The translations under genes were made by a program, and so were the position numbers. 15,640 bases of DNA from a candidate division Zixibacteria bacterium SM23_81 (GTDB lineage: Bacteria; SM23-81), in assembly GCA_001304015.1 (NCBI GenBank), contig LJUY01000063.1, positions 1-15,640 on the forward strand, given 5' to 3'. The notes beneath the pieces were generated by a model that made no database searches, was not told the DNA's origin, and worked only from the letters and a program-made list of their open reading frames with translations. Every line of letters begins with the position of its first letter. Position 1 is the stretch's first letter. Shown here piece after piece: positions 4,193 through 13,294 of this stretch.

Positions 4193-4277
4193 GCGAGAGT
4201 GGCGGAACTGGCAGACGCGCTGGATTTAGGATCCAGTAGGGCGACCTATGGGGGTTCGAGTCCCCCCTCTCGCACCA
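4193..4277 (+). tRNA. tRNA-Leu (anticodon UAG)
   Basis: Acceptor arm GCGAGAG (4193-4199) pairs with CTCTCGC (4267-4273), followed by A73 and an encoded CCA (4275-4277). The anticodon stem CTGGA/TCCAG (4220-4224, 4232-4236) encloses loop TTTAGGA with anticodon TAG at 4227-4229, which reads CUN leucine codons (mainly CUA). The T arm is GGGGGTTCGAGTCCCCC, and a long variable arm, as expected for leucine tRNAs, accounts for the 85-base length. The trigger factor start codon lies only 26 bases downstream, so tRNA and tig are probably on one primary transcript processed by RNase P and a 3' nuclease. Confidence 0.97.
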
Positions 4278-5637: not shown

Positions 5638-6222
5638 ATGAGCTTAATTCCCATCGTGGTAGAACAGAGCGCACGGGGAGAACGCGCCTACGATATCTTT
5701 TCACGGCTCTTAAAGGATCGCATCATCTTTATCGGCAACATCATCAACGACGTCGTTGCCAACTTGGTCATCGCCCAGATGCTCTTTTTAGAGGCGGAGG
5801 ATCCTGACAAAGACATATTCCTCTACATCAACACTCCGGGCGGAAACGTTTCCTCAGGGCTGGCCATCTACGACACCATTCAGTACATCAGACCAGACGT
5901 GGCGACCATCTGCATGGGTCAAGCGGCCAGCATGGGAGCTTTGCTTCTGGGCGCGGGTGCGAAAGGCAAGCGTTCGGCTCTGCCACACTCGCGCATCATG
6001 ATCCATCAGCCCTGGGGAGGCGTACAGGGGCAGGTGGCCGACATCGAGATTCATGCCAAAGAACTGATTGTGCTCAGGAAGCGGATGAACGAGATCCTGG
6101 CCAAACACACCGGGCAGCCTTTGAAGAAGATCCAACAGGATACGGACCGTAACTTCTTTATGTCCCCCGAGGAAGCTCAACAATACGGCATCATCGACGA
6201 GGTCATCGAGAAGAAACAGTGA
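5638..6222 (+). CDS. clpP: ATP-dependent Clp protease proteolytic subunit, catalytic Asp replaced by Asn
   Basis: A 194-residue serine peptidase that stacks as two heptamers into a degradation chamber fed by ClpX. It is collinear with Bacillus subtilis ClpP from [10 protein letters not shown] onward, so ATG 5638 is secure. The nucleophile is Ser98 (GQAASMGA) and the general base His123 (MIHQPWGG). The third triad position, Asp172 in most ClpPs (TDRDxF), reads TDRNFFMS here: residue 172 is Asn, codon AAC. Listeria ClpP1 is a known case with Asn in this place. No second clpP is in the window. The conserved YINTPGG (usual YINSPGG) and the hydrophobic N-terminal axial segment are present, and there is no long propeptide. 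It lies between tig (14 bases upstream) and clpX in the classical order. Confidence 0.96.
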
Positions 6223-6246
6223 GACAATATAGCATCGTCGGTTACC

Positions 6247-6286
6247 AGGGGCTTGCGTTGTCCGCTGACGCGACGGCCCCTTTCTC
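6247..6286 (+). terminator. Weak intercistronic hairpin between clpP and clpX
   Basis: AGGGGC (6247-6252) pairs with GCCCCT (6276-6281). GCGT/ACGC (6255-6258 with 6268-6271) can add an inner stem, and the run TTTCTC follows. This is an imperfect terminator shape. It may reduce read-through into clpX or protect the clpP mRNA 3' end. ClpX has its own SD after it. Confidence 0.4.
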
Positions 6287-6310
6287 ATTCTTGCATCTGG
6301 TGAGGTCACC

Positions 6311-7552
6311 ATGACATCACATAAAGAAGAGCCGAAATGCTCCTTCTGCGGCAAACTCCAGAGCGAGGTGGAGCGGTTGATCTCCAGCCACTCCGTCCAC
6401 ATCTGCGCTCATTGTGTGCGTATTTGTGGCCAGCTTCTCCAAGCTGAGGCAAAAGCTGCGATACCCGAGAGGCCTCTGCCCACCCCTCGCGAGATCCACG
6501 CAGCCCTGGACGATTATGTCATCGACCAAGAACGGGCCAAAAAGACTTTGGCAGTAGCCGTCTACAATCACTACAAACGCATAAACTACCAGCCCGAAGC
6601 CGACTCCGTGGAGTTGGAGAAAAGTAACATCTTGCTTATCGGCCCAACGGGAACGGGAAAAACACTGCTGGCCCAGACCCTGGCCAAATCGCTGCACGTC
6701 CCTTTCTCCATCTCCGATGCCACGGTTCTCACCGAGGCGGGATACGTTGGAGAGGATGTGGAGAATATCTTGGTCCGACTGATACAGGCTGCCGACTATG
6801 ATATCGCCAGGGCTGAGCGAGGAATTATCTACATCGACGAAATAGACAAGATCTCCCGGCGCGACGCCAATCCGTCCATCACTCGCGACGTCTCTGGAGA
6901 GGGTGTCCAGCAAGCCCTTCTCAAAATCCTGGAAGGCACTCTGGCCCACGTTCCTCCTAAAGGAGGTCGAAAACATCCAGAGCAATTCTTGATTCAGATC
7001 AACACCAAGAAAATCCTCTTCATCTGTGGTGGAACCTTTGATGGTCTGGAGAAAATCATCGAACATCGTCTCGATAGAAAAACCATGGGCTTCGGCGCTC
7101 CCATCAGGAGTAAGCGGGAAAAGAAGGGAATTGGTGAGGTGTTCTGCCAGGTTCAGACCGATGATCTTCTCAAATACGGCTTCATTCCGGAGCTCATTGG
7201 CCGCCTGCCTGTTGTGGCTACCCTGGATGAGCTGGACGAAGGGGCTTTGTTGGATATTCTCGTTCAACCAAAAAATGCCATCACCAAACAATATCAGAAG
7301 TACTTCGAGATGGAAGGAGTCCAGTTGAACTTCGCCCCCGAGGCTCTGAAGGCTGTGGTTAAAATTGCTCTCAAACGAGGAACCGGGGCCAGAGGCCTCC
7401 GTTCCGCGATGGAGGAGGCCATGCTGGATGTCATGTACCATTTGCCATCCAAGTCCAACATTAAGGAATGTTTCATCTCTCCAGAAGTTATCACCGAAGG
7501 GGCTCAGCCTGTGTTCGTCAAGGCCTCCGCCAGACGACGGCAGGCCCGCTGA
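6311..7552 (+). CDS. clpX: ATP-dependent Clp protease ATP-binding subunit ClpX
   Basis: A 413-residue AAA+ unfoldase that recognises tagged substrates, unfolds them and threads them into ClpP. The N-terminal zinc-binding domain has Cys10, Cys13, Cys32 and Cys35. Walker A is GPTGTGKT (111-118) and Walker B IIYIDEID (172-179, Glu177). Pore loop 1 is GYVG (144-147), the RKH loop is 220-222, the arginine-finger region GRLP is at 297-300, and sensor 2 is GTGARGLR (357-364). The ClpP-docking tripeptide, usually I/L/V-G-F, is MGF (259-261). All catalytic elements are intact and the length is normal. The ATG is preceded by TGAGGT. Lon follows 27 bases downstream, so clpX and lon are probably co-transcribed. 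Confidence 0.97.
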
Positions 7553-7579
7553 CACCCATAAAACCTGGGCGAATCTGAC

Positions 7580-9934
7580 ATGATTACAATCCAAAGAGAA
7601 GAAGAAATCATAGAGCTCCATGAAAAGCTCCCCATCCTGCCCCTGCGGGATGTGGTCATCTTTCCCTACATGATCTTTCCTTTATTGGTGGGGCGCCAGA
7701 TTTCCATCACCGCGTTGCAAGAGGCGATGATGCTCGACCGACAAATCCTTTTGTGTACCCAAAAGAACCCAACTGTGGAGATCCCCGGCAAGCAAGACCT
7801 GTATCGAGTCGGCATTGTAGCCCGGGTTCTCCAGATACTCCGCCTGCCCAATGAGACCATAAAAATCCTCATAGAGGGTCTGGTGAGAGCCAAGATCAGA
7901 AGGTTTTTTTCCAGCAAGGGATATCTTCAGGCCAGAATCGTCCCCATGAGTGAGAAACAGATGGAAAACGATGTAGAGACTCAAGCTCTGATTAGAAGCG
8001 CTCTCACTCAATTCACCGATTACGTCAAGTTGAACCACAGGATTCCCGATGAGGTTCTTCTCTCTATCGGGAATATTCAAAATCCCTTCCGTCTGGCCGA
8101 CACCCTCTCCGCTCATATTATCCAGAGCCCCGAGATGAAACAAAAAATATTGCAGGCGGAAAACCTCCCAGAGCGCTTCATCGAGATCACCAAAATCCTG
8201 GCGGCCGAAAAACAGATCTTGGAGATCGAGGAGAAGATCGATGGACAGGTTCGAAGCCAGCTGGAAAAAGGCCAGCGAGAATATTATCTACAGCAGCAGA
8301 TGAAGGCCATCAAGGCTGAGCTGGGTGAGGAGGAGGAGACAGCGGAGAGTGCTGAATATGCTCGCAAGATCCGAGAAGCCAAGATGTCCCCGGAATCTGA
8401 GGAGAAAGCTCTTGCTGAGTTGAAAAAATTGAAGAAGATGCACCCTACCTCTCCGGAATCGACGGTGGTGCGCAATTACCTCGACTGGCTGATTTCCCTT
8501 CCCTGGCAGAAAAGGACACAGGATAAATTGAATATCCCTGAGGCGGAATCCATTCTGGAAGAGGATCATTATGGTCTGAAAAAACCCAAGGAAAGGATCG
8601 TTGAGCATTTGGCGGTGATGAAGCTTTCCAATCAGGTACGCGGCCCCATCCTTTGCTTCGTAGGCCCTCCTGGAGTGGGCAAAACCTCATTGGGAAAATC
8701 TGTGGCCAGGGCGCTGGGCAGAAATTTCGTGCGGATTTCACTGGGGGGGGTTCGGGACGAAGCTGAGATCCGGGGGCATCGTCGAACCTACATCGGATCG
8801 ATGCCGGGCAAGATCATTCAGTGCATTAAGAAGGCTAAGACGAAGAACCCCGTTTTCCTCCTCGATGAGGTGGACAAGATGAGCGTGGACTTTCGCGGCG
8901 ACCCATCAGCGGCTCTTTTAGAGGTGTTGGACCCGGATCAAAACAACACTTTTAACGACCATTACCTCGAGGTGGACTTCGACCTCTCGGAGGTCTTCTT
9001 CATCACCACAGCGAATACACTGCCGTCCATACCCCTGCCCCTCCAGGACCGGATGGAAATCATCCGGCTTCCGGGATACCTGGAGTTCGAGAAACTTAAT
9101 ATCGCCAAGGGATTTCTCATCCCCAAACAGCTGAAACAAAATGGTCTAGATTCTAAGACCCTCAGTTTCAGCGATGGGGCGTTGTCCGCCATCGTCGGCC
9201 AATATACCCGCGAGGCGGGTGTCAGAAATTTAGAGCGAGAGATCGCCACCATCTGCCGTAAGGTGGCGAAAGAGGTAGTGAGCAAGAAGATCAAGAAACC
9301 CGTGAAGATCACCAAGAACAATCTGGCCGCCTACCTGGGGGCCCCCCGGTATTTGGAATGGGAGCTGGAATCCCAAGATGCCGTGGGTTCGGCCACAGGC
9401 CTGGCTTGGACGGAGGTGGGAGGCCAAATTCTCACCGTAGAGGTCATCTTGCTCCGAGGAAAAGGCAACCTTATCCTCACCGGAAAGCTGGGCGAGGTGA
9501 TGAAGGAATCGGGGGAGGCCGCCCTTAGCTATGCGCGTTCTCGGGCCAAGATCTTGGGTTTGCAGCCAGATTTCTATCATAAGTTCGATGTTCACATCCA
9601 CTTGCCTGAAGGGGCAATACCTAAAGATGGCCCCTCGGCGGGCATCACCATTGCTACAGCCCTGGTCTCATCCTTAACTGGCAGGCCTGTGCGTCACGAT
9701 GTAGCCATGACGGGCGAACTCACTCTTCGGGGACGGATTTTGCCAGTGGGAGGGCTCAGCGAAAAGGTCATCGCCGCCCAGCGCGCCGGCATCAGAACCG
9801 TGCTCCTTCCTCGAAAAAACGACAAGGACGTCAAAGAGTTGCCTGCCGAGGTCAAACGGGGGCTGAACATCCAATTGGTGGAGAATATGGACCAGGTCCT
9901 GGAGTCTGCTCTGACGCCCGCTCCTTCCAAGTGA
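7580..9934 (+). CDS. lon: ATP-dependent Lon protease (LonA type)
   Basis: At 784 residues it has the same length as E. coli Lon. The N-terminal substrate-binding domain begins with [15 protein letters not shown] (residues ~17-31), the canonical LonA opening. A coiled-coil linker follows (~200-260, [19 protein letters not shown]). The AAA+ module has Walker A GPPGVGKT (362-369) and Walker B LLDEVDK (Asp429, Glu430). The C-terminal protease domain has the Ser-Lys dyad: Ser686 in KDGPSAG and Lys729 in GGLSEKV, 43 residues apart as in E. coli. It degrades misfolded and regulatory proteins in the cytoplasm. The ribosome binding site before ATG 7580 is poor, which may mean translational coupling to clpX, whose stop is 27 bases upstream. 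No heat-shock CIRCE or sigma-32-like site is visible. Confidence 0.97.
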
Positions 9935-10021
9935 TCTTTGCTCTTCGTCCCTCCAGTCTCCACTCCCTATCGTCCGCGATCCTTTCACAAACGTGCCATC
10001 GGGAGAATTCTGCGGGAAACC

Positions 10022-10627
10022 ATGTTCAAGGTCACCTCGTCTCAATACATCACCAGCGTCGTCTCACTGGACCTTATCCCAAAGGCCAGATTTCCTGAAA
10101 TCGCCTTTGCGGGACGGTCTAACGTGGGCAAATCCTCTTTAATCAACACTCTCCTGGGACGCCAGCGACTGGCCCAAACCAGCTCAACACCGGGGAAGAC
10201 TCGTATGCTCAACTTCTTCTTGGTGAACGAAAATATCTTCTTCGTGGATTTGCCGGGCTATGGATATGCCAAAGTAGCCAAGCAGCTCCGAAACCGTTGG
10301 AGCAATTTGGTGGAACCCTATATTCGCGACCGCGAGACTCTCACGGGTGTCATCCATCTCATAGACTGTCGGCATGAGCCCACCCAGAATGACTCTCAGT
10401 TGAGCCAATGGTTGGATTTTTACCAGATCCCTTCATTGGTGGCCGTCACAAAGGCGGACAAACTCTCCCGGCCCAAGGCCATGCTGGCATTGAATGTGGC
10501 CGCACAAACTCTTCATCGAGAAGAGGATCAATGCGTGCTGTTTTCAGCCAAAACCGGTGAAGGCAAAGCCGAGATTTGGAAGTGGATAGTGGGAAAGCTT
10601 CGCCCTTTTTATAAAGAACGGGCATAA
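10022..10627 (+). CDS. engB: Ribosome biogenesis GTPase YsxC/EngB (YihA)
   Basis: A TRAFAC-class GTPase required for late assembly of the 50S subunit. With the start at ATG 10022 the protein has 201 residues and begins MFKVTSSQYITS, like typical family members. The frame stays open upstream to a TTG at 9938, but those 28 codons look non-family and lack an SD. G-motifs: G1 GRSNVGKSS (31-39), G2 STPGKT (55-60, Thr57), G3 DLPGYGYA (76-83), G4 TKAD (143-146), G5 SAK (175-177). It follows lon after an 87-base gap. Lon next to ysxC is a conserved pairing in several phyla, so this gene probably belongs to the same operon or a read-through unit. Confidence 0.94.
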   Translation: MFKVTSSQYITSVVSLDLIPKARFPEIAFAGRSNVGKSSLINTLLGRQRLAQTSSTPGKTRMLNFFLVNENIFFVDLPGYGYAKVAKQLRNRWSNLVEPYIRDRETLTGVIHLIDCRHEPTQNDSQLSQWLDFYQIPSLVAVTKADKLSRPKAMLALNVAAQTLHREEDQCVLFSAKTGEGKAEIWKWIVGKLRPFYKERA

Positions 10628-11872: not shown

Positions 11873-11982
11873 TTGAAAGTCCTGGTTACAGCATCCATCT
11901 GGCAACGGTGAATGCCGCCACAAGCGCCGCCGAGCGAGGCATCAAATCTGTGGTGAGGAATGGGTCTTTCCGCACGGCTTGA
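11873..11982 (+). pseudogene. serA: Probable remnant of serA (D-3-phosphoglycerate dehydrogenase)
   Basis: A strong SD (GGGAGGGG) precedes TTG 11873, which opens MKVLVTASIWQR and stops at TGA 11909-11911. MKVLVT is the typical first stretch of D-3-phosphoglycerate dehydrogenase. A second frame continues directly after it (11896-11982): HLATVNAATSAAERGIKSVV, then a stop. VNAxxxAxERGIxV is the signature of the intervening (ASB) domain far inside SerA. Both pieces thus match SerA but are joined after only ~8 residues, with the NAD-binding Rossmann core missing, as expected for a large internal deletion with frameshift. The motifs are seen; the SerA identity is from family knowledge, and no alignment was run. 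A short chance ORF is the alternative. Confidence 0.5.
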
Positions 11983-12061: not shown

Positions 12062-12090
12062 TTGACAAAAATCACGAAATATGTTATAGT
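12062..12090 (+). promoter_or_regulatory. Strong sigma-70 promoter of the structured RNA
   Basis: TTGACA (12062-12067), a 17-base spacer and TATAGT (12085-12090). The -35 is a perfect consensus and the -10 one base off. The predicted transcription start is about 12097. The AT-tracts upstream fit an UP element. Confidence 0.85.
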
Positions 12091-12096
12091 TGACTT

Positions 12097-12278
12097 ATAA
12101 GGAGAAGATTTAAGGCACTAACGAAAGGGTGTGGCTTATACTAAACTGCTAAGGGTTTCGTTTCCAACATCATGATGCGAGAGCATGGGCGACGAAGCGT
12201 CCCTTTAGCATGTTTTTGGACCGTATCTAGGAAGACTAGCCGAGTCCGGGGAGGCGTTTCGCGGGCTCGGTTTTTTTG
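12097..12278 (+). ncRNA. Predicted structured RNA of about 180 nt (unassigned family)
   Basis: The segment runs from a consensus promoter to an intrinsic terminator and contains no ORF. Nested inverted repeats build one long rod: ATAC/GTAT (12138-12141 with 12223-12226), AAAC/GTTT (12143-12146 with 12212-12215), TGCTAAGGG/CCCTTTAGCA (12147-12155 with 12201-12210), TTCGT/ACGAA (12157-12161 with 12192-12196). The tip is ATGC-GAGA-GCAT (12175-12186) with a GNRA tetraloop. TTTCGTT (12156-12162) can instead pair with AACGAAA (12120-12126), so a switch is possible. Length and rod shape recall 6S RNA, but I cannot see the 6S central bubble. It could also be a leader that attenuates the sigma gene 150 bases downstream. 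No SRP, RNase P, tmRNA or known riboswitch signature is seen. Confidence 0.6.
12240..12277 (+). terminator. Intrinsic terminator of the structured RNA
   Basis: CCGAGTCCG (12240-12248) pairs with CGGGCTCGG (12262-12270) over nine positions including one T-G wobble. Seven T follow (12271-12277). This is the cleanest evidence that the RNA ends before the sigma factor gene. Confidence 0.9.
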
Positions 12279-12371
12279 ACGATAGTCCTATGGCGGCTCG
12301 TTGAGAATGGAAAAACGGACATTTGGGGTCCTGGAAAGGGAAGATGATCCTGCTCAATTTTCGCTACACTT

Positions 12372-12400
12372 TTGACTCCACTAGAGCGTCTAAATAATAA
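12372..12400 (+). promoter_or_regulatory. Candidate promoter of the sigma factor gene
   Basis: TTGACT (12372-12377), a 17-base spacer and TAATAA (12395-12400) lie 34 bases before the start codon and after the RNA terminator. This would let the sigma gene be transcribed independently of the upstream RNA. Confidence 0.55.
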
Positions 12401-12433: not shown

Positions 12434-13294
12434 ATGATCTTATCATCCAAGATACCGCTTCAAGGTGGAAACCGAAGCTTACAAAGATATTTGCAGGAAG
12501 TTGGAAAGCCGGATCTGCTGACCAACAGCGAAGAGGCAGAGCTGGCCCGGCGCATCAAAAAGGGCGACCGGGAGGCTTTGAATAAGCTGGTCTGTGCCAA
12601 CCTGCGTTTCGTCATCAGTGTGGCCAGACATTATCAGAACCAAGGGGTTCCTCTTTCCGACCTGATCTCAGAGGGAAACATTGGACTCATCGAGGCAGCC
12701 AAGCGGTTCGATCAGACCAAAGGGTTTCGATTCATCTCCTATGCTGTGTGGTGGATTCGACAATCCATACTGGCTGCGCTGGCCAAACAGTCGCGTATCG
12801 TTCGGCTCCCCTTGAATAAGATCGCTGAGCTGCAGAAGATGAGCCAGGCTATTGAGCATTACGTCCGCGATCATCATCGTTCGCCCCAGACCTCTGAGAT
12901 TGCAGAGCAGTTGAAGATGGGAGAGACGGAGGCTTCAGAGCTTTTCAGCGCATTTGGGCGACATCTATCCTTGAACGGATCACCCACCAACGACGGGAAC
13001 GCCCTCACCCTGCTGAATACTCTGCCCAACGAGAAAGATCCCCCGCCAGACGAAAACGTTCTGGTCGGCGACCTTTCCCGTCAGATGGAGAGGGCCATCT
13101 CCACCCTATCGACCCGTCAAGCGGAGGTCATCCGCATGTACTATGGCCTCGCCGGGAAGAAGCCGCAGACCTTGAAGCAGATCGGTAAGCATTTTGGGCT
13201 CTCCAGGGAGAGGGTGCGACAGATCAAAAAACAAGCGCTGGAGAAACTGCGGCATGCCTGCCGAAAGCGTCTTCTGGAACCATATTTGGAGTAA
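12434..13294 (+). CDS. rpoD: RNA polymerase sigma factor, sigma-70 family (RpoD/SigA-like)
   Basis: A 286-residue sigma-70 without region 1.1. Region 1.2 is ~14-45 (SLQRYLQEVGKPDLLT). Region 2 is ~50-120, with NLRFVISVARHYQNQGVPLSDLI (2.1-2.2), GFRFISYAVWWIRQSI (2.3-2.4) and the -10-recognising YAVWWIR. Region 3 starts QSRIVRLPLNK (~119-130). Region 4 is ~215-275, with the helix-turn-helix TLKQIGKHFGLSRERVRQIK (246-265) that reads the -35 box. Size and sequence closely resemble the primary sigma factor of Bacteroidetes/Chlorobi, so it is likely the housekeeping factor, though a group 2 paralogue cannot be excluded. ATG 12434 has GGAGG (12421-12425) upstream. The gene has its own promoter and terminator and is monocistronic. 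Confidence 0.93.
   Translation: MILSSKIPLQGGNRSLQRYLQEVGKPDLLTNSEEAELARRIKKGDREALNKLVCANLRFVISVARHYQNQGVPLSDLISEGNIGLIEAAKRFDQTKGFRFISYAVWWIRQSILAALAKQSRIVRLPLNKIAELQKMSQAIEHYVRDHHRSPQTSEIAEQLKMGETEASELFSAFGRHLSLNGSPTNDGNALTLLNTLPNEKDPPPDENVLVGDLSRQMERAISTLSTRQAEVIRMYYGLAGKKPQTLKQIGKHFGLSRERVRQIKKQALEKLRHACRKRLLEPYLE

Follow-up and report, generated by a model that had tools for sequence, protein, structure and literature searches.

6S RNAs have the shape of a rod that includes a closing stem and a central bubble (PMC8876501). The locus described here shares with 6S RNA (RF00013) and 6S-Flavo RNA (RF01685) a length of about 180-200 nt, a strong promoter and a long apical stem. With attenuating riboswitches and leader RNAs it has in common a position 5' to a regulatory gene and a structured element followed by a terminator, and with generic intergenic trans-acting sRNAs it shares its length, its own sigma-70 promoter, a stem-loop body, a Rho-independent terminator, a lineage-restricted occurrence and a conserved core segment.

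The locus occupies positions 12097-12278 on the plus strand of a 15,640-nt window (the whole stretch of DNA analysed) and is about 180 nt long, its start being placed from the spacing to the -10 element and its end from the T run. Judging from sequence comparison, it is very probably a real, conserved RNA gene and thus a candidate sRNA. Our preferred reading, to which we give a rough probability of 0.55, is that of a stand-alone, constitutively transcribed regulatory sRNA gene that acts in trans via an invariant segment.

Results

The window belongs to the genome G000, and the comparison set for its phylum consisted of four genomes (G000-G003), of which G001 is the sole other member of the same family, in a different genus. 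This relative carries a homologue of the RNA at the same position (72-73% DNA identity, E 5e-23), directly upstream of the orthologous sigma factor gene, as in the window genome. A sequence-only reading had described a promoted, structured and terminated RNA and had proposed a comparison with related genomes; its coordinates were correct on recheck, and promoter, stem and terminator are all present in the relative at the same place. Between the two genomes, the promoter is 83%, the RNA core 76% and the terminator 85% identical, unlike most of the flanking sequence, which is 30-47% identical (RNA 5' end 30%, linker 31%, DNA upstream 47%, DNA after the terminator 42%); around the block preceding the sigma gene, identity is 60%.

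The promoter (12062-12090, plus strand) consists of a -35 element TTGACA at 12062-12067, a 17-nt spacer and an extended -10 element TG-n-TATAGT, with the -10 at 12085-12090 and A/T tracts upstream. It matches 11 of 12 consensus bases; when the intergenic region is dinucleotide-shuffled, 2 of 500 sequences reach this score. The relative has a full 12/12 match (TTGACA-17-TATAAT with TG), in line with the consensus promoter described earlier. From this strong, probably constitutive promoter, we infer that housekeeping RNA polymerase transcribes 12097-12278, and the transcript would be ended by the intrinsic terminator of the RNA itself at 12238-12278 (plus strand). This terminator comprises an 11-bp stem (12238-12248 with 12262-12272), an inner 3-bp stem and a T run; it folds at -22.4 kcal/mol (z -4.1, with none of 200 shuffles as good), and its three stem changes in the relative keep all pairs. 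A simple terminator scanner did not call it, and the clean intrinsic terminator of the sequence-only reading is nonetheless borne out by its stability and conservation. The RNA thus has the conserved promoter and conserved Rho-independent terminator of its own that mark a stand-alone sRNA.

Between these two elements lies the long stem capped by GAGA that had also been noted, formed by 12147-12155 with 12202-12210 and by 12156-12162 with 12191-12197, with the GAGA loop near its tip. Taken alone, it folds moderately better than shuffles (-21.5 kcal/mol, z -2.0; equalled by 10 of 200), and the fold of the whole RNA is weakly beyond chance, with z -1.76 in the window genome and z -2.66 in the relative, so that the case for the RNA rests on conservation and not on folding energy. 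In the modelled structure 100% of cells are paired, as compared to 38-53% in slid versions. All six main-stem substitutions in the relative sit on the 3' arm (12191-12210, plus strand, with a bulge CGTC at 12198-12201) and preserve pairing, a pattern with a chance of about 0.001 under uniform substitution and of about 0.12 when only transitions are counted, with 12 of the 16 positions permissive for a transition. The modelled main stem and terminator show no double-sided pair change between these two sequences, and a small predicted linker hairpin with two such changes lies in poorly aligned sequence and was left uncounted. Since the stem changes are confined to the 3' arm, the 5' arm appears to be under a further constraint, for example from a partner molecule or an alternative pairing.

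The 5' arm, together with an unpaired AACATC, makes up an invariant 26-nt block, CTGCTAAGGGTTTCGTTTCCAACATC (12146-12171, plus strand), that is identical at 26 of 26 positions in the relative. It is preceded by a conserved 5' part (12120-12145, plus strand; TAACGRAA and GCTTATAC), which is 79% identical over alignment columns 26-53 and could partly pair with 12156-12162. With up to two mismatches allowed, an 18-nt piece of the invariant block occurs once in the window genome and once in the relative, with no further occurrence in the four genomes of the phylum. These 26 invariant bases, the pair-preserving changes between promoter and terminator and the divergence of the neighbouring DNA speak against conserved but non-functional transcription noise, in which only a strong promoter and a terminator would be maintained and the stem would be a by-product; the whole-RNA folding energy, barely past that of shuffles, would fit such noise, which we nevertheless regard as very improbable.

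The RNA had also been described as free of open reading frames, and it shows no coding signature, but a mechanical ORF of 35 aa is present at 12172-12279 and runs through the terminator. A small protein encoded from 12172 would be in keeping with this ORF and with an overlapping open frame in the relative. However, this ORF continues across the terminator hairpin, its ATG is replaced by TTG in the relative, gaps shift the middle of the frame, including part of the stem, into another frame, and the invariant block is devoid of silent changes. The coding reading was therefore rejected on frame and substitution pattern, and its chances seem negligible.

The gene downstream (12434-13294, plus strand), which starts 155 nt beyond the terminator, encodes a 286-aa RpoS/RpoD-like sigma-70 family protein whose best NCBIfam matches, RpoS and RpoD, both fall below the equivalog cut-offs; its orthologue in the relative is 92% identical. 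The earlier label of a primary-type sigma factor is not established, as the protein is a short RpoS/RpoD-like paralogue, and because the window genome has four further sigma matches, one of them a 598-aa frame, a group-2 type factor is more likely than a sole primary sigma factor. In a search of GTDB genome contigs with the sigma protein, the best among the matches listed were about 55% identical and mostly from Bacteroidota, and none of those listed was a near relative.

Beyond the RNA terminator there is probably a separate promoter for the sigma gene. The candidate lies at 12366-12394 (plus strand) and consists of ACACTT, GAACTT in the relative, followed by GAGCGTCTAA, in an ECF-like arrangement. 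The two genomes share an identical 11-nt block, GAGCGTCTAAA, within an otherwise weakly conserved sigma leader, and in the relative it is preceded by the GAACTT-like element at promoter spacing; this region looks like an ECF-type promoter, an assignment that we infer from these motifs. The possible ECF promoter hints that the sigma factor itself sits in an envelope-stress-type cascade.

Upstream of the RNA, the window contains a remnant of serA (3-phosphoglycerate dehydrogenase) at 11873-11946, in which LKVLVTASI corresponds to residues 6-14 and VNAATSAAERGIK to residues 389-401 of the serA product of the relative, where an intact 530-aa serA stands at the corresponding place. The window genome, 93% complete, yielded no serA at any other place, so that the gene was apparently lost through internal deletion and decay. 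Further upstream, the window has the gene order clpP-clpX-lon-engB at 5638-10627, with clpP recognised by eye and the other three by NCBIfam. Before it lies a trigger-factor-like gene, which in its listed ORF overlaps at the start with a tRNA-Leu gene (4193-4277), and at 68-1105 there is a protein with a terminal PNPFNPTT...FLK, by eye typical of T9SS-type C-terminal sorting signals.

The sequence-only reading had further proposed competing folds that could make the RNA a switch or attenuator of the sigma gene. In such a cis-acting leader, one of two folds would block the terminator and allow read-through into the sigma gene. The order of RNA and sigma gene, common to both genera despite the loss of serA from the window genome, is in keeping with this model, as are the preserved AACGRAA/TTTCGTT alternative and the invariance of the shared strand, whose two partner strands both vary. 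However, of the three proposed pairings, only TTTCGTT/AACGAAA survives in the relative (where AACGAAA reads AACGGAA and one A-U pair has become G-U), and it lies within chance, as shuffling the columns of the 5' flank gave a helix of at least 7 pairs in 101 of 1000 trials (chance about 0.10). A gap and a change disrupt the AAAGGG/CCCTTT pairing in the relative, where it is out of register, and the GGCT/AGCC pairing is lost there as well, GGCT reading AGCT. Pairing of the upstream RNA with the terminator 5' arm was no better than in shuffles (469 of 500 and 267 of 500 as good), and no conserved antiterminator exclusive with the terminator was found. Considering also the separate promoter-like block before the sigma gene, an attenuator model is not favoured, and we hold a cis-acting leader to be unlikely.

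A different contact is suggested by the terminator loop GGCG (12253-12256), which can pair with the main-stem bulge CGTC. The pairing is kept in the relative (loop GACG), where a U-G becomes a U-A pair, and it is part of a 9-bp alternative helix kept in both genomes. As the longest helix reached 9 bp in 13 of 200 column shuffles, conservation of this putative bulge-to-terminator-loop contact is no more than suggestive.

In cmscan searches with all 4227 Rfam families, a tRNA was the sole match in the window at the gathering threshold, and the RNA region and its homologue in the relative gave no credible match at E<=10, riboswitch and leader families included, so that the earlier remark that no known family signature could be recognised holds. 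For SRP RNA (RF00169) there was no match in the RNA region, and the SRP RNA of the genome lies elsewhere (G000:C38). At E<=10, neither RF00013 nor RF01685 matched the RNA region; RF00013 was likewise without a match in the window genome as a whole and in the other three genomes (G001-G003), and RF01685 gave a chance-level match of 22 bits elsewhere in the window genome, against a cut-off of 85. The control relative G058 gave a clear 6S match, which shows for at least one case that the 6S model is effective at this distance.

The RNA could still be a diverged 6S (or Ms1-like) RNA, able to bind RNA polymerase and to mimic an open promoter. Its length and strong promoter would suit such a role, as would the fact that the four genomes of the phylum lack a recognised Rfam 6S, so that the 6S of the phylum, if any, has escaped recognition. 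In addition, the conserved positions cluster in the 5' strand of the apical stem, close to the site that templates product RNA in real 6S (PMC8876501). Against this, and against the 6S-like regulator proposed earlier, stand the missing Rfam matches, the engagement of the 3' end in the terminator hairpin and the lack of a 5'-3' closing stem in either genome; pairing between the two flanks was no better than in shuffles (842 of 1000 and 516 of 1000 as good in the two genomes), and the closing stem is absent from the consensus fold. We thus consider a diverged 6S quite improbable.

Searches of the phylum and of about 300 genomes with BLAST, exact patterns and a covariance model found the copy in G001 as the only homologue. 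The covariance model was derived from both copies and recovers them by construction; among 290 genomes it gave strong scores for these copies only, and it found no RNA in two further small phyla. Two borderline matches (E 0.07-0.09, spanning 60-70 nt) look like chance, and the IMG/VR, phage and plasmid collections contained no homologues. The best sigma matches in the remaining two genomes of the phylum (G002 and G003) lie in another context, by eye with a small gene upstream and an MreC-like gene downstream, and the RNA is absent beside them. From these searches the RNA appears limited to one bacterial family, although fast-evolving sRNAs can escape such searches.

Discussion

A stand-alone sRNA gene would yield an RNA that folds as a single long stem with a sequence-fixed 5' arm and a terminator hairpin, the two possibly joined through the bulge-to-loop contact. 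The invariant segment at 12146-12171, with the conserved GCTTATAC before it, would then contact an mRNA or a protein, most likely in trans. Because both genera keep the RNA in front of the sigma gene, the sigma mRNA can be considered a candidate target, and the same adjacency could mean that the RNA acts in cis instead. A more speculative reading, which we think improbable, is that of a new structured-RNA class limited to one family, in which the 26-nt arm and the contact between bulge and terminator loop build a tertiary fold able to bind RNA polymerase or a sigma factor, in a lineage without a recognisable 6S RNA.

If expressed, the locus would be an sRNA gene particular to one lineage of a phylum that has hardly been studied, and a concrete candidate in a setting where current models recognise no 6S RNA. 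It would add an unnamed RNA to known kinds and no new mechanism.

Compared to the systems that it most resembles, the RNA lacks the closing stem, and hence the rod with a central bubble, of 6S and 6S-Flavo RNAs, and has no match to their covariance models. From attenuating riboswitches and leader RNAs it differs in being without a conserved antiterminator and in having its terminator 155 nt away from a gene with a promoter-like block of its own. From the generic trans-acting sRNA it departs in that neither a chaperone site nor a target was recognised and in that its most conserved segment lies mostly inside a long stem rather than in a single-stranded region.
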